A DNA stretch of 62,797 bases. Source: a virus. A program made the translations under genes and the position numbers. How positions within the stretch are numbered: the first letter of the stretch is position 1; each line of letters opens with the position of its first letter. Under the pieces are notes generated by a model. That model saw nothing but the letters and a program-made list of their open reading frames with translations. It made no database searches and was not told the origin of the DNA. Location of the stretch: positions 1 to 62,797 of IMG/VR virus record IMGVR_UViG_3300025410_000589; one strand, written 5' to 3'. Positions 1-62,797 of this stretch are shown here, one piece after another.

Positions 1-142
1 CTAAAATAATAATTTTTGATTTGTCTTTTGGAACACTTATATTATGTTTTTTATAAGCTCTATCGTTTTTACCTTTACCGATATAATAAGGTAAACCAGT
101 TTTTTTGTTTATATATGCGTATATGTAAAATTTATCATTCAT
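1..142 (-). CDS. GIY-YIG homing endonuclease, N-terminal fragment
   Basis: This minus-strand reading frame starts with ATG at 142 and runs off the left edge after 47 codons. The N-terminus carries the GIY-YIG nuclease signature: a first strand YIYAYI, then the YYIGKGKNDRAY segment at residues 19-30. That is the nuclease core of the free-standing homing endonucleases common in T4-like phages, which cut DNA to spread their own gene. The catalytic Arg and Glu helices expected downstream are not in the window. A minus-strand TATAAATA sits at 204-211 and could drive it. A C-terminal part of the same kind of gene enters from the right edge at 62797, also on the minus strand. Confidence 0.8.
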   Translation of the reverse strand, partial: MNDKFYIYAYINKKTGLPYYIGKGKNDRAYKKHNISVPKDKSKIIIL

Positions 143-203
143 AGCTGATGTCCTTTCCGACGTTAGAGTAGTTGGGACCGCCATCCGCGAACTACAATAT
201 ATG

Positions 204-442: not shown

Positions 443-461
443 TCATTTTATGGAGACTGAT

Positions 462-1073
462 ATGATTACTAAAGAACAACTTCAAAAATTCTTTGAAGAT
501 ACAGACGAAGAAATTATTGATTCTTTCGTTGATCCTCTTAACAAAACATTCGAACATTTTGAAATTAATACTCCAGAACGTATCTCTATGTTCTTGGCGC
601 AGGTTGGTGTTGAATCAGCTGGCCTGACTGCAACAAAAGAAAACTTAAACTACAAACCAGCAACCCTAGCTAAACTCTGGCCATCGCATTTCCGTGACGT
701 TGATGTAAATGATTACGCCCACAATCCAGAAAAGATTGCTAATCGTGTATATGCTGATAGAATGGGGAATGGTGATGAAGATTCAGGAGATGGCTACAAG
801 TACCGTGGTCGTGGTCTTATTCAGCTTACTGGCCATGATAACTACAAGCATTTTGCTGACAGCATGGGGATGGGTATTGATGAAGCTGTTTCTTACCTAG
901 AAGGCCCAGAAGGTGCTGCGATGTCAGCTGGCTGGTTCTGGGATAATCATAAATTAAATCATCTCGCCGATGTTGATAATGTTAAAGACGTAACCCACAA
1001 GATCAATGGTGGGTACAATGGTCTTGAAGAGCGTGAGTCTCTATACAAAGAAGCAAGAGAGATATTCGCATAA
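462..1073 (+). CDS. Endolysin, glycoside hydrolase family 19 (chitinase-like lysozyme)
   Basis: This 203-residue protein degrades peptidoglycan at the end of infection. Family GH19 features are visible: an early Glu in the helix MFLAQVGVESAG, the segment NYKPATLAKLWP, the block RVYADRMGNGDEDSGDG, and the strongly conserved YRGRGLIQLTGHDNY stretch. No signal peptide is seen, so it would need a holin or other export route. I place the start at 462, not the upstream in-frame ATG at 450, because GGAG (452-455) lies six bases before it. The promoter may be the CATAAATA at 414-421, one base off the T4 late box. Confidence 0.9.
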   Translation: MITKEQLQKFFEDTDEEIIDSFVDPLNKTFEHFEINTPERISMFLAQVGVESAGLTATKENLNYKPATLAKLWPSHFRDVDVNDYAHNPEKIANRVYADRMGNGDEDSGDGYKYRGRGLIQLTGHDNYKHFADSMGMGIDEAVSYLEGPEGAAMSAGWFWDNHKLNHLADVDNVKDVTHKINGGYNGLEERESLYKEAREIFA

Positions 1074-20841: not shown

Positions 20842-21010
20842 TATAAAAGAAGATTCTGGTGCTATTGCTCCTGCAGCTGTTAATTCGGTCGGCGCTGGTG
20901 GTATGGGTTCGACCAGTCAAGGGCCAATCCAGGGTTATGATCCTTTTCTTGAGAAGCCAAAGAAAAAGAAACTACGCGATATTGTAAGAAGAAAGATGCC
21001 AAATGGTTGA
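20834..21010 (+). CDS. Short Gly-rich protein with basic tail
   Basis: 58 residues: a low-complexity Ala/Gly half (AVNSVGAGGMGSTSQGP) then PKKKKLRDIVRRKM. Overlaps both neighbours by eight bases, a typical phage coupling. Such Gly-rich plus basic-tail proteins occur at this place in related phages; function unknown. Confidence 0.6.
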   Translation: MSNIKEDSGAIAPAAVNSVGAGGMGSTSQGPIQGYDPFLEKPKKKKLRDIVRRKMPNG

Positions 21011-21380
21011 TCAAATTGATCGTTTAGAAAGTGCAATCGAACGCCTAGCCGATATATCAACGGATCTAAAAGCGATGTTGGCAGCACACGAACAGCGTAT
21101 CAATCAATCTGAAAAAGATACAGGCGTGCTGTTTAAGCTCGCCGAGAATAGAAGAAAAGAATACGACGCAAAAATCGACGAAGTCTATAACAGCATGAAC
21201 GAAAAAGACGATAAGATTCTCTCAGAACTAAAAGCCCATCGCGAGGCTTCCGCGAAGGAACACGAATCTCTATCAAAAAGAATTACAATATTAGAAAAAT
21301 ATATCTGGCTCGCGATTGGCGGCGCCACTGTAATATCTTCGCTAATGCCATATATGATAAAAATGGTAACTGGCCACTAA
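21003..21380 (+). CDS. Coiled-coil protein with C-terminal membrane anchor
   Basis: 125 residues: a charged helix (1-95, heptad-like) then one hydrophobic helix (about 100-121, WLAIGGATVISSLMPYMI). Layout resembles phage XhlA-like haemolysin/lysis accessory proteins. A role in lysis or membrane attachment is possible, not shown. Confidence 0.65.
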   Translation: MVDQIDRLESAIERLADISTDLKAMLAAHEQRINQSEKDTGVLFKLAENRRKEYDAKIDEVYNSMNEKDDKILSELKAHREASAKEHESLSKRITILEKYIWLAIGGATVISSLMPYMIKMVTGH

Positions 21381-22672: not shown

Positions 22673-23363
22673 GATCGTAGCAGTAACACAACCAACTATT
22701 AGCAACCCAGATGATCCATTTGATTCTCTGATGGAAATAAATGACTTCATCGCCTATGTTGCCCGAGTCTCTAATCCGTCTAATCAGAATAACACTCTTA
22801 CGGCCAACAAACTATTGAAGTATCTGGCCAAGCATAAGCACTGGTCGCCGTTTGAGATGGTTCATGTTGTGATGGAGATTAACACGACTCGTGACATTGC
22901 CCGTCAGATTCTGCGTCACCGTAGCTTTACGTTTCAGGAGTTTAGTCAGCGTTATGCTGATCCTACAAATGACTTGGGGTTTGTTACTCGCGAAGCTCGT
23001 TTGCAAGATCCCAAGAATCGCCAGAATAGTATAGCAATTAATCCAGGCGATGGGGAAAATGTTGCTAATTTTATGAGTGATTGGCACTGGCAACAGCAAA
23101 ATATGATTGATGCAGCAAAGAGTGCATATGATTGGGCAATTGAAAATGGAATCGCAAAAGAACAAGCAAGAGCAGTACTCCCAGAAGGTCTTACAGTTTC
23201 TCGCATGTATATGGCTGGCTCTCTGCGTAGTTGGATACATTATTGCCAATTGAGAATGGCAAACGGAACCCAGAAAGAACATCAGGAAGTTGCTACTGAT
23301 GCTTGGTATCAACTGACTTCAAAATTCTCATCATTAAAGGATAGTCTCAATGATCTCAGTTAA
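22656..23363 (+). CDS. thyX: Flavin-dependent thymidylate synthase ThyX
   Basis: This 235-residue enzyme makes dTMP from dUMP using FAD and methylene-tetrahydrofolate. The ThyX motif RHRx7S is present as RHRSFTFQEFS (87-97), followed by QRYA. The C-terminal helix carries AGSLRSWIHYCQLR. It supplies thymidine for phage DNA, together with the ribonucleotide reductase encoded further on. Two in-frame ATGs (22656, 22659) are possible starts. Confidence 0.95.
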   Translation: MMNSAKIVAVTQPTISNPDDPFDSLMEINDFIAYVARVSNPSNQNNTLTANKLLKYLAKHKHWSPFEMVHVVMEINTTRDIARQILRHRSFTFQEFSQRYADPTNDLGFVTREARLQDPKNRQNSIAINPGDGENVANFMSDWHWQQQNMIDAAKSAYDWAIENGIAKEQARAVLPEGLTVSRMYMAGSLRSWIHYCQLRMANGTQKEHQEVATDAWYQLTSKFSSLKDSLNDLS

Positions 23364-23844
23364 GGGTGCTTCTAACTATCTTACTAAGAAAGAATTGTGG
23401 TACGTTAAGGATCTCTGCGAATTTATATGTGACAAATTTTTCACAAAACGTCTACAAGATAAGCTCGAGATTACTGTAAAGTTTTCAGATTTTTTAGAAA
23501 AGGAAGGTTTCTTGGGCGACTGTGGATGGGAAGATAATCATTATCGTCCTAGGGAATTTACCATTAATGTCGATCGCCACGGTAGGTTTGCTCAGATCAT
23601 CAACACCGTAGCCCATGAGATGGTTCATGTTAAACAGATGGCTAAGGGCGAGTTCTATCAGCTCATGCGCCAGCCATCAGGCATACACAAATACAACGGT
23701 AAGATCGTAGATCAGAATAAGGTTGATTATTGGGATCAGCCTTGGGAGATTGAAGCCCACGGTAGAGCAATTGGATTGGTCAACCAGTGGGCTAGAGATA
23801 GGAAGTTTTCTATTTCTGTCTGCGAGAAAGTAATCTTAGATTAA
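23350..23844 (+). CDS. SprT-like zinc metalloprotease
   Basis: This 164-residue protein contains HEMVHVKQ at about 96-103, an HExxH zinc site, and a downstream Glu in DQPWEIEAHGRA. SprT/Spartan-type proteases act on proteins cross-linked to DNA; phage versions are common and of unknown target. Overlaps thyX by 14 bases and converges with a minus-strand gene, with nine bases shared. Confidence 0.8.
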   Translation: MISVKGASNYLTKKELWYVKDLCEFICDKFFTKRLQDKLEITVKFSDFLEKEGFLGDCGWEDNHYRPREFTINVDRHGRFAQIINTVAHEMVHVKQMAKGEFYQLMRQPSGIHKYNGKIVDQNKVDYWDQPWEIEAHGRAIGLVNQWARDRKFSISVCEKVILD

Positions 23845-24309
23845 CAACATATAACCTTGGGCGAATAGTAGGCTGGCAAATACCGCACAACCTACACTCG
23901 CCCAGAGTAGCTCCATACTGACAGCAAGTATGGAAGTGGAAGAGAGAACCATGGCAATCTGAAGGAATGTAATAGCCATTGAATACCATGGGCTACGCTT
24001 CTTAGCTTCGTCTCTATCAGCTTCGAGTTTACGAGCCTCGTTCATGATCTCTTTCTTTTCATTCTCATACTTTGCTATTACTTTCTCGTCCGGCTCTACG
24101 CGAAGCTCATAGATGTTCTGCTTGATAGACTTTGCCTGATAGAAAGACCAAGTGTCGTTGATCGATAATGTGTTGCTAAGAATCTTAGAACTGTTGCCAT
24201 TTGATACTAAAGTGAATGTTGCAAGAAGTAAAGCAAAAACTGAAATGGTGATAGCACCACGTCCCTTCATTACTGCTTCGCCCTCCGATCTCGACATACC
24301 TTTTAACAT
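23836..24309 (-). CDS. Membrane protein, DUF4337-like
   Basis: This 157-residue protein has one N-terminal membrane helix (about 18-35), a soluble segment with NDTWSFYQAKSIKQ, a Lys/Glu helix, and two C-terminal membrane helices (about 107-157). The NDTWSFYQAKS pattern recalls DUF4337 bacterial membrane proteins. Consensus GGAGG precedes the ATG on the minus strand. Last gene of a four-gene leftward operon; start overlaps the previous stop by one base. Confidence 0.7.
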   Translation of the reverse strand: MLKGMSRSEGEAVMKGRGAITISVFALLLATFTLVSNGNSSKILSNTLSINDTWSFYQAKSIKQNIYELRVEPDEKVIAKYENEKKEIMNEARKLEADRDEAKKRSPWYSMAITFLQIAMVLSSTSILAVSMELLWASVGCAVFASLLFAQGYMLLI

Positions 24310-24611
24310 TATTTTCCTCCAATTAAACTCTTAAGTAAACCTACACCCTGTTTTGCCTGCATCATATCTACTGGGCCACTCTGTATTGAACCCCAAACCA
24401 CAGCAAAAAGCAATAGTAGTGTCAGACCACAATTGATGATCTGTATGACTGAGCCAATGCCGAGTAGGTGCTCGACTCTAACTAACTCGCGGATCAGCAA
24501 GCTAACCATCTCAACTTCAGTCTTACATCTTTCAGCTTCATTTAACCAGAATGCTTTTTCTTTCATCTCTGGTGGATATCTACGTTTAACTTCTTGATCT
24601 ACGATTGCCAT
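24309..24611 (-). CDS. Single-span membrane protein
   Basis: 100 residues: a charged N-terminal half (about 1-50) and one membrane helix (about 58-77, IINCGLTLLLLFAVVWGSI), then a short amphipathic end. Both ends overlap neighbours by a single base (TAATG), so the genes are translationally coupled. Third gene of the leftward operon. Not recognised. Confidence 0.65.
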   Translation of the reverse strand: MAIVDQEVKRRYPPEMKEKAFWLNEAERCKTEVEMVSLLIRELVRVEHLLGIGSVIQIINCGLTLLLLFAVVWGSIQSGPVDMMQAKQGVGLLKSLIGGK

Positions 24612-25162
24612 TATTTTATACCAGCTTTAAATTCTAGTATCGACAATCTCTTATCAACGTTACCTCTTGATACAGCAGCATCTAAAGCTAGTTTATCTAT
24701 ACGGTCGCCTAATTCTTCTCTCAACTGTTGTCTACCCAATGCAGCTTCTGCTTTTATCGCTGCCCTCGCTTGCGCAGCGTCAGCCTGCATCTCGAGTGTA
24801 ATCTTTTGATTGGATGCGATACTTTTTTCTCTGTCGAGAGTCATAGCGGCTCTTGCCAAAGCTGCGTCCCTTTCCACTTTGTCTATCTTTTCATTTAGTG
24901 ATTCTCTGATTTGTGCCATATCAATAGTTGTTCCTTGTGGAGGAATAGCTTTATTATCAGCATTAACAACTACAGCGATTTTAGACTTGAGTTGAATGAT
25001 CTCGTTGTTAGCACTGCTCAATGCTGACATCAAGTAAACGACGCAGCTAAAAAGAATAGGAATGCCAGCGAATACAATTTTTTCAATCAACGCACCCTTA
25101 GTTTGGTTAGAAGCTAATTGTTGTTCAACCGCTGCAATTTTTTTGTCTTCATCAGTTAACAT
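24611..25162 (-). CDS. Membrane-anchored coiled-coil protein
   Basis: 183 residues: a cytoplasmic start, one membrane helix (about 27-48, IVFAGIPILFSCVVYLMSAL), then about 130 residues of Ala/Arg/Glu/Leu-rich coiled coil. GGAG lies seven bases before the start on the minus strand. No family recognised. Second gene of the leftward operon. Confidence 0.65.
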   Translation of the reverse strand: MLTDEDKKIAAVEQQLASNQTKGALIEKIVFAGIPILFSCVVYLMSALSSANNEIIQLKSKIAVVVNADNKAIPPQGTTIDMAQIRESLNEKIDKVERDAALARAAMTLDREKSIASNQKITLEMQADAAQARAAIKAEAALGRQQLREELGDRIDKLALDAAVSRGNVDKRLSILEFKAGIK

Positions 25163-25187
25163 GGTTTACTCCATTTTTTTTTTATTA

Positions 25188-25667
25188 TTAGAATCCTGGT
25201 AATATTTTTGATAACATGTGGTAGGTTGCATAATCTCCGCTTGCTTTTGATAGCATAGCAAACCCAGCTAGCATTACCCAAAGAAGAGCAGGAAGAACAA
25301 TCAGTAGAACGAAAGCAAGAACCATTAACTGTTCTCTTTCCTCAGCAGCTTCTTTTGCTTCAACTTCTGCACGTGCAGCTGCTTTGGCTAATTCAGCCTT
25401 ATCTTTAAAGTATTTTTCTTTTTCTGCGGTGGAAAGTGTCATGAGCATGCGAGCTTCTTCTTCTTGAAGTTTCTTCGCATTTTCTGCTTTAATCTTGGCA
25501 TTCTTAATCATCTGTCTCTGGTTCTGCAACTTCATCTTGTTGTTTGCAGCTTCTTTCATACCTTTTTGATTCTTGAAAAGGTCTGTAATACCAAAAATAG
25601 ACTCAGTGAGAACTTCGCCCCAAGCCTTGCCGAGCTTGGCAGCTTCTTTCGGATCTGACGGTAACAT
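25188..25667 (-). CDS. Coiled-coil protein with C-terminal membrane helix
   Basis: 159 residues: an N-terminal DPKEAAKLGKAWGEVLTESI segment, a long Lys/Ala/Glu coiled coil (about 38-112), then one membrane helix (about 115-140, LAFVLLIVLPALLWVMLAGFA). GAGG precedes the ATG. First gene of the leftward membrane operon, mirror-oriented to the next gene's membrane topology. Function unknown. Confidence 0.65.
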   Translation of the reverse strand: MLPSDPKEAAKLGKAWGEVLTESIFGITDLFKNQKGMKEAANNKMKLQNQRQMIKNAKIKAENAKKLQEEEARMLMTLSTAEKEKYFKDKAELAKAAARAEVEAKEAAEEREQLMVLAFVLLIVLPALLWVMLAGFAMLSKASGDYATYHMLSKILPGF

Positions 25668-25782
25668 GGAATACCTCTTTATTAAAATTTACTATAATCA
25701 GAAAAAAATAATAAAGAATCAGACGTGGTATTTATTAACAACTGATACTATAAGTAGGTAGTAATCAGAAAAAGAGGCATGT

Positions 25783-31545: not shown

Positions 31546-31730
31546 GTGGAAGTTATTTGGGTGGCTCTACTGTTATAAAACCAAAATATAACAAAAAAAG
31601 AGCAAAACATTTAAGAGAGAGAATGAAAAAACACATAGAAGTGTTAAATAAAAAGAACACTAGCGATAGAGAAATACTTGAAAATTTCGTTTCTGAAAGT
31701 TTTTTAATAAAAAAGGAAGATAAATTATGA
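31542..31730 (+). CDS. Small basic protein
   Basis: 62 residues, very basic in the middle (KPKYNKKRAKHLRERMKKH) and acidic near the end. Four-base overlaps on both sides. Possibly nucleic-acid binding; no family recognised. Confidence 0.6.
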   Translation: MSGSYLGGSTVIKPKYNKKRAKHLRERMKKHIEVLNKKNTSDREILENFVSESFLIKKEDKL

Positions 31731-32533
31731 GATTACTATTTAATTTTCTAATTCTAGTATTAGCAACTGTTGGTTTTGCTCGTGCTGCGGATCAATTACC
31801 ACCGAAGCCAGTCGCTTCTTGTTCGGTACAGGTGCCATATGGAACACCATCTACAGTCGCTAATCACCCTGTCATTTGTAGGACTGCTTATTTGCTCGAG
31901 CATGATCCTGTTGCCAAAATCCCAAACTGGGTCGCTTGGACTCTTACCCCAGATCATGCTATCGGGTGCGTGGCTCGCACTAATGCTTTTGCTGCCGACC
32001 AGTCTCTACCAGCTGGTGCTAGATCTGCCCCATCTGATTATGCTGGTTCTGGATATGATCAGGGGCATCTAGCCAACGATGCTGATATGTCTTGGGACAA
32101 TCAAGTCGAGCATGAATCATTCTATATGTCTAACATGAGCCCACAACTTCCATCCGTTAATCGCGGTACTTGGAAAAATCTAGAGTCGGCAGCTCGTGCT
32201 TGGGTCTATCAGACTAAACATCCACATACGATCTATGCGGGTAACATTTACTCATCCGGATCAAAAACTATTGGTGCTGATAAGGTTGTCGTTCCTGACA
32301 CTCTATTTAAAATTGTTATTGATGATGTTACTAAAAAGTCATATGCTTTCATGTTCCCTCACAAGGACGGTTTATCATCTGACTTTACACAATATCAGGT
32401 AACGGTTGCTGAAGTCGAAGTTGCTTCTAAGATTACATTCCCTGTTCCTGATTCAAAAACAGTAAAGAATCCTCCTCTTGTTGCTGATCTAAAGACTATC
32501 GCAGCCGACAAGAAGAAGCAATGTAAGGAGTAA
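31727..32533 (+). CDS. Secreted DNA/RNA non-specific endonuclease
   Basis: This 268-residue protein has a clear signal peptide (cut after about residue 20, AARA-like GFARA) and then a beta-beta-alpha-metal nuclease domain of the Serratia/NucA type: DQGH (111-114; His114 the general base, Gln in place of the usual Arg) and NMSPQLPSVNRGTWKNLE (136-153). Export would place it in the periplasm, where it could cut host or incoming DNA. Four-base overlap with the gene before. Confidence 0.85.
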   Translation: MRLLFNFLILVLATVGFARAADQLPPKPVASCSVQVPYGTPSTVANHPVICRTAYLLEHDPVAKIPNWVAWTLTPDHAIGCVARTNAFAADQSLPAGARSAPSDYAGSGYDQGHLANDADMSWDNQVEHESFYMSNMSPQLPSVNRGTWKNLESAARAWVYQTKHPHTIYAGNIYSSGSKTIGADKVVVPDTLFKIVIDDVTKKSYAFMFPHKDGLSSDFTQYQVTVAEVEVASKITFPVPDSKTVKNPPLVADLKTIAADKKKQCKE

Positions 32534-33689: not shown

Positions 33690-34115
33690 ATGAAAAAGAC
33701 AGCAAATCTGCTGTTCCTATTGGCACTGTTGTTTTCTTTTAGTGAAGCCCACGGAGCAGCTAAACAATACAAAGCATCAGCAACATGGTATGAATGTTGC
33801 GAAAAGACAGCTAACGGTGAGCGTTTCCATCCCTATGGGTTTACAGCCGCTCACCGCACATTTCCTTTTGGGACTGTATTAAGATTGACTAATGAAAAGA
33901 CTGGTAAATCTATCATAGTAAGAGTGAATGATAGAGGGCCATATATTCGTGGTAGAGATATAGATGTGACGAAAGGCGGAGCAATTGCTCTTGGTTTCTT
34001 TCACAGTGGGACTGCTAAGTTGTTGATAGAAGTTTTGGAAAAAGGAAAAAAGAATGATAAATCTATTCGAAAAGTACGTAGGTCAAACATTCGATACGGT
34101 GCACGATCAAATTAA
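33690..34115 (+). CDS. RlpA-like double-psi beta-barrel protein (predicted lytic transglycosylase)
   Basis: This 141-residue exported protein has a signal peptide (1 to about 23) and an RlpA domain: ATWYECCEKTANGERF, TAAHRTFPFGT (His55) and VNDRGPYIRGRDIDVTKGGA (Asp81), the His and Asp that are catalytic in RlpA transglycosylases. It would act on peptidoglycan in the periplasm and may help lysis or cell-wall remodelling. The typical C-terminal SPOR domain of bacterial RlpA is absent. Confidence 0.85.
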   Translation: MKKTANLLFLLALLFSFSEAHGAAKQYKASATWYECCEKTANGERFHPYGFTAAHRTFPFGTVLRLTNEKTGKSIIVRVNDRGPYIRGRDIDVTKGGAIALGFFHSGTAKLLIEVLEKGKKNDKSIRKVRRSNIRYGARSN

Positions 34116-62021: not shown

Positions 62022-62138
62022 ATGATTCCTAGCTGGTATAAAATCTACACACGCATCATTGACAATACTATAAAGATAGTTTGGTTGATATTACTGATAA
62101 CATGGCTGCTTGATGGCGCCAAATTGCTTGTAAAATAA
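62022..62138 (+). CDS. Single-span membrane micropeptide
   Basis: 38 residues starting one base after the previous stop: MIPSWYKIYTRIIDNTIKI then a hydrophobic helix (IVWLILLITWLLDGAKLLV). Last protein gene before the tmRNA. Confidence 0.55.
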   Translation: MIPSWYKIYTRIIDNTIKIVWLILLITWLLDGAKLLVK

Positions 62139-62139
62139 C

Positions 62140-62168
62140 TTGACTTTTTACCCAATGTAGGCTATAAA
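62140..62168 (+). promoter_or_regulatory. tmRNA promoter
   Basis: TTGACT (62140-62145), 17 bases, TATAAA (62163-62168), which also forms a TATAAATA late-type box (62163-62170). Transcription would begin near 62175, at the start of the acceptor piece. Confidence 0.78.
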
Positions 62169-62174
62169 TAATAT

Positions 62175-62503
62175 GCGATGGTCGTTGACGTTATACGGCA
62201 TAAGCACACTGGACTCGGGGGCGGTACCCGACGCCTCCACCATAGATACATGGTGCTGTTACCAATTAAGGTGTAAGGATGCCATCAAAAAGAACGTACA
62301 GCTCCGTTCTGGCAAATCGTCATCATGTATCTTTGCTGGGGGCGAAATAGGATCGACAGGTGTGATAAAGGTATTACTGAGATCATAGCAAACGTCATAG
62401 ATGCAAACGATAATGCACCTATCGCTATGGCACTAGCTGCCTAAGCATGAGCTTTTGGTAGTTTTGGCTTGGAAACAGAACAAAACTACCGTCAATAACA
62501 ACT
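62175..62503 (+). ncRNA. ssrA: Permuted, two-piece tmRNA (ssrA)
   Basis: The acceptor piece comes first: T-stem TCGGG/CCCGA and acceptor CGCCTCC (62232-62238) followed by A and CCA (62240-62242). The coding piece begins GGGGGCG at 62338, pairing completely with that acceptor and giving the G3-U70 alanine identity pair. The typical GGATCGACAGG follows. The tag reads from GCA at 62403 as ANDNAPIAMALAA with a TAA at 62442, preceded by TAGAT as in other tmRNAs. The piece ends in a ten-pair hairpin, and CCGT/ATAAC near 62489-62499 can pair with acceptor bases 62190-62198. This order is the alphaproteobacterial permuted form. The T-loop (GGCGGTA) departs from TTCGA. Exact ends are estimated. Confidence 0.93.
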
Positions 62504-62797
62504 TCGTTGATGTAATACTAATCCATTAACTGAAATTATTTTTTTACAATTCAAACAACATACCTTTTTTTGTTGTTTTCCTTGCATTGGATTTTTACCA
62601 TTTCGGCTTTGTTCTTTTCTTTTTTCTATTAAATGTTCTTTCATTCCAGGCATTTTCCACATATTTAATATTTTATTTTTTTGTTGTTCTTTATTTTTAG
62701 GTAATTTATTCATATGCCAAGAATTTCTTTTACCATTTTCCGACATGGTTAACGATATAATTTTTTCTTTATCTATCATTTTAGATAAACCAAGCCA
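62492..62797 (-). CDS. GIY-YIG homing endonuclease, C-terminal fragment
   Basis: The minus-strand frame enters from the right edge with no stop and ends at 62492-62494, giving 101 codons. The protein contains LSKMIDKEKIIS, repeated Lys/Asn-rich DNA-binding motifs like NUMOD3 (NGKNPMQGK) and a terminal CCLNC...C zinc-finger-like end. Such C-termini belong to GIY-YIG homing endonucleases, whose N-terminal nuclease part is seen at the left edge. The stop overlaps the tmRNA 3' end by about 11 bases. Confidence 0.75.
   Translation of the reverse strand, partial: WLGLSKMIDKEKIISLTMSENGKRNSWHMNKLPKNKEQQKNKILNMWKMPGMKEHLIEKRKEQSRNGKNPMQGKQQKKVCCLNCKKIISVNGLVLHQRSCY

Follow-up and report, generated by a model that had tools for sequence, protein, structure and literature searches.

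The window, the whole 62,797-base stretch of DNA analyzed here, is an IMG/VR virus record that represents part of a T4-like myovirus genome; PHROG matches to DNA polymerase, DnaB-like helicase, primase, NrdA, NrdB, and PhoH, among others, underlie this assignment. At 23836-25667, four tightly coupled leftward genes (P1 to P4; Table 1) were found exactly where an earlier note on this DNA had placed them. The P2/P3 and P3/P4 junctions share a TAATG stop/start, P1 and P2 are separated by 25 nt that contain GGAG, and the convergent plus-strand gene overlaps P4 by 9 bp. Related loci (L-numbers) were fetched, genes in them were called as plain ATG open reading frames (ORFs), and gene families (F-numbers) were defined by blastp clustering.

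Table 1. Coordinates of the P1-P4 operon, its signals, and other features of the window
Feature	Position	Strand	Description
P1	25667-25188	-	159 aa; charged helical N-terminal part, one C-terminal transmembrane helix (TM; tail-anchored look)
P2	25162-24611	-	183 aa; N-terminal TM, then conserved juxtamembrane segment NKAIPPQGTTIDMAQIRE, helical tail
P3	24611-24309	-	100-aa bitopic protein; homologous to small protein F59 of relatives
P4	24309-23836	-	157 aa; DUF4337 three-TM protein with W-x-x-Y-Q-A-K-S-I-K motif
GGAG	25169..25172	-	Probable ribosome-binding site of P2, from sequence
T4/cyanophage-type late promoter motif	25729..25736	-	AATAAATA, 68 bp upstream of P1 start codon
Convergent neighbor gene	23350-23844	+	
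Edge-cut ORF	2-184	-	
Candidate endolysin	450..1073	+	Clusters with GH19 endolysins, family F14
Coiled-coil protein	21003-21380	+	DUF7201, just upstream of primase
Endonuclease-domain protein	31727-32533	+	N-terminal hydrophobic segment and DNA/RNA nonspecific endonuclease domain (PF01223, E=1.5e-44)
DPBB-domain protein	33690-34115	+	DPBB lytic-transglycosylase-type domain (PF03330, E=2.5e-19) after hydrophobic N terminus
tmRNA	62136-62535	+	Permuted alphaproteobacterial type (RF01849, 131 bits); ARAGORN tag ANDNAPIAMALAA

Hydropathy predicted one TM each in P1 (residues 114 to 132, C-terminal), P2 (29 to 47, N-terminal), and P3 (54 to 72) and three in P4, in agreement with the suggestion that every protein carries at least one membrane helix. 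Of the long coiled coils with opposite anchors that had also been described, the charged helical stretches and the opposite anchoring of P1 and P2 were recovered, and the coiled-coil nature of the two arms is inferred from composition.

Nucleotide changes in P1 to P4 fall mostly at third codon positions, with dN/dS ratios of 0.015 to 0.09 against the nearest relatives. Against close relatives, the ratio was 0.046 to 0.093 for P1 (L147 and L146, where P1 identity is 76% and 83%, respectively), 0.025 for P2, 0.015 for P3, and 0.092 for P4. By this codon comparison, the four genes are coding and under purifying selection, strong against close relatives; P1 compared with the more distant P1 of L065 gave 0.32, dS being close to 2 in that pair, and saturation affected several distant pairs. 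They had been called the only complete minus-strand genes of the window, and this holds: no other complete minus-strand ORF has a homolog in the fetched relative loci, and the ORF at 2-184, which has one, is cut by the window edge.

Elsewhere in the window, the phage-borne tmRNA of alphaproteobacterial type may hint at the host, and the product of 31727-32533 is possibly a secreted phage nuclease. A relative of the DUF7201 protein (family F47) comes after the holin gene in L107.

Families, distribution, and gene order

P4 is a genuine member of DUF4337 (PF14235, residues 19 to 153; E=7.1e-31; 108 bits against a 27-bit gathering cutoff), which turns what had been noted as a DUF4337-like pattern into a Pfam match. 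It keeps the W-x-x-(Y/F)-Q-A-K-S motif of most bacterial members sampled; nonetheless, viral copies form one group, set apart from six bacterial sequences by a supported branch (100/97), a rough picture because the six are all of one phylum and their rows are long. In L157, by sequence inspection, the bacterial DUF4337 gene lies between serS-like and ndk-like genes. P1, P2, and P3 belong to no known family in Pfam or PHROG, as had been stated, with no convincing match in NCBIfam or PADLOC either. P2 hardly varies among relatives over most of the TM and the segment NKAIPPQGTTIDMAQIRE. P3 is homologous to F59 (hhalign, 92.5%). For P1 and F8, hhalign gave 57%, confined to the C-terminal part, and F8 is treated here as a P1 look-alike rather than a proven homolog. 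F8 is itself homologous to F3 (hhalign, 99.2%), a protein with a C-terminal TM and the commonest neighbor of P4, within three genes of it at 29 of 59 loci.

Searches (tblastn) of 50,697 GenBank phage records with P1 to P4 found none of them, and those with a P2 relative (L129) and a P4 relative (L011) likewise returned nothing from GenBank phages. In IMG/VR, an alignment search for P4 matched at least 570 contigs (64 loci with a single-sequence P4 query), and P2 was present in at least 298; among bacterial and archaeal genomes, P2 occurred on one contig, phage-like in appearance. Presence in other phages, which the earlier note had left for checking, can therefore be affirmed: the module is widespread in IMG/VR but part of no known structural set, so that the note's refuting condition of wide occurrence as such a set does not apply.

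P1, P2, and P4 are kept together in several relatives (L002/L067, L065, L077, and L083), with P3 or F59 before or after P2. In L147, a gene of holin family F19 stands directly upstream of P1 and is followed by P1, P3, and P4, without P2. In L107, P2 is followed by Rz1-like (PF23793) and Rz-like genes on the other strand, beyond which lie an endolysin of GH19 type and a holin of family F19.

Late promoter motif

The motif upstream of P1 is of the T4 late type, summarized as (N)ATAAATA; the consensus NATAAATA has been reported for the late promoters of T4-like cyanophages (PMC2984593). Of the 10 relatives listed, among which L002 and L146 are one contig, 8 have ATAAATA at a distance of 62 to 95 bp upstream of P1. 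For each run of same-strand genes in both locus sets, the leader of the opening gene was scored for the motif 10 to 120 bp upstream, with identical upstream sequences counted once. By this measure, the motif precedes P1 in 10/12 leaders, P4 in 47/89, and F3 in 20/46, against 1/85 control leaders (polymerase, helicase, primase, UvsX, NrdA, PhoH, and phosphoesterase). This conserved motif indicates that the operon is probably transcribed late in infection. Lateness alone does not imply lysis, since GH19 endolysins rarely have the motif (1/18); holin F19 has it in 3/10 leaders. The candidate endolysin of the window, which falls under the Pfam cutoff for GH19 (E=0.039), has ATAAATA 35 bp upstream and sits outside the operon, 23 kb away, a distance that counts against a lysis role for the operon.

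The late motif is shared with the structural-type family F77 (3/3 leaders), and the proteins might instead serve virion morphogenesis or DNA ejection, scaffolding prohead assembly at the membrane or traveling in the virion. Sequence inspection of L065 also shows genes resembling virion-structural genes downstream of P4. Against such a role, which we consider quite unlikely, none of P1 to P4 has a PHROG structural match above noise, and P2 and F8 adjoin holin and endolysin genes.

The motif bears also on superinfection exclusion or immunity, in which a membrane complex would block DNA entry by a second phage late in infection. Small membrane proteins encoded in isolation and in opposite orientation would suit it, and the very conserved TM and juxtamembrane segment of P2 could bind a host channel. 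T4 Imm and Sp, however, are early-acting, whereas this operon has a late promoter motif; P1 to P4 have no match above cutoff to a known anti-phage, exclusion, or immunity family (Pfam and PADLOC), and the lysis-gene neighborhoods of P2 and F8 point elsewhere. Exclusion is accordingly an unlikely function.

Lysis-gene neighborhoods and the phage's own lysis genes

The lysis families marked were GH108, GH24, GH19, muramidase, and SLT endolysins, holin F19 (one member matches PHROG 3427 holin, with a PF11351 match just under cutoff), holin-like F2 (named from annotation in two phages and endolysin neighbors), and spanin-like families. In the first set of loci, a lysis gene lay within two genes of P2 in 47 of 66 distinct neighborhoods (control mean 13.7, maximum 23, 300 draws), of P1, F8, and F3 jointly in 26 of 57 (8.3, 16), and of P4 in 11 of 55 (5.2, 11). 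Holins F19 or F2 were within two genes of P4 in 9/55 (control 2.1, maximum 5), a modest link. A second set was fetched later, partly from the same contigs. Here F8 had a lysis gene within three genes in 38/43 (control mean 17.0, maximum 24) and P2 had one in 11/18 (4.3, 9); the P4 count, 9/59, was not significant (5.8, 10). Restricting the set to proteins absent from the first gave 34/37 for F8, 5/12 for P2 (at loci reached through P4 or F8), and 6/50 for P4. All these counts lend support but fall short of proof, as the lysis families were chosen after the neighborhoods had been seen and related phages, not being independent, inflate the numbers. P4 was rejected as a lysis gene on neighborhood alone, there being no excess in the second set.

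Among GenBank phages, MW202496 carries an F8 relative two genes from a PF11351 holin, while HMO-2011 and Limnohabitans phage DC31 each have one near a lysozyme or endopeptidase. The GH24/GH19 endolysins of three P2-bearing loci (L070 and L120, family F79; L072, an F14 member) have an apparent C-terminal TM.

Part of the operon might itself be a holin or spanin set, with P2 as a T4 T-like or Rz-like protein. i-Spanins are anchored by one N-terminal TM from which a long C-terminal arm extends, and P2 shares this layout, with one N-terminal TM and a long helical arm. T4 holin T likewise has just one TM, at the N terminus, and a long arm on its C-terminal side (PMC12162936; for the role of i-spanins, see PMC9636201). 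P1 to P4, however, match neither PF11031 nor PF11351 (Pfam scan). A separate PF11351 match is present in 12 of 15 relatives' records (9 over cutoff), PF11031 is found in none of the 15, and separate Rz/Rz1-like genes are present in relatives including L044 and L107. By inspection, P1 to P4 contain no lipobox, and the operon holds no o-spanin (lipoprotein) partner. We therefore rejected the idea that P1 to P4 supply this phage with its holin or its spanin pair and regard a holin or spanin identity for part of the operon as improbable. A separate three-TM holin in most relatives, and separate spanins in several, argue for an accessory or regulator.

Candidate role of the operon

We propose that the operon encodes a late-expressed inner-membrane module that most likely assists or regulates host lysis, a reading to which we give about an even chance and which draws on the lysis-gene neighborhoods of P2 relatives and of F8. 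We consider superinfection exclusion and virion assembly less probable. Of the three functions offered by the earlier note, lysis timing gained from the late promoter and the P2 and F8 neighborhoods, exclusion is treated above, and anti-defense found no PADLOC match for any of P1 to P4.

The operon would act beside the holin, endolysin, and spanins of the phage itself. P1, with its helical arm and C-terminal anchor, and P2, with its N-terminal anchor and helical arm, may form a pair across the membrane around a core of P3 and P4; the resulting complex could bind or gate the holin, or condition the envelope, leading to timed endolysin release. More speculative, and rather unlikely in this specific form, is a lysis-timing complex of a new kind, in which a DUF4337 core and two oppositely anchored helical proteins would sense the envelope from both membrane sides and gate an ordinary three-TM holin.

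Two known systems offer partial parallels. XhlA of PBSX, a helical protein that has a C-terminal TM and adjoins a holin, resembles P1 and F8 in these respects, although P1 has no Pfam XhlA match. T4 holin T and antiholin RI-RIII, which time lysis, resemble the module, itself probably late, in being late single-TM proteins of the inner membrane whose arms lie outside it, and holin genes are nearby in some relatives; P1 to P4 differ in forming a four-protein set in which no RI-type protein was identified.

The analysis gives a candidate late, lysis-linked role to families present in hundreds of IMG/VR contigs and not found by tblastn in the GenBank phage records searched, and it places DUF4337 in a phage context. 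If the proposed role is true, a multiprotein accessory layer would be added to the holin-controlled lysis of T4-like phages.
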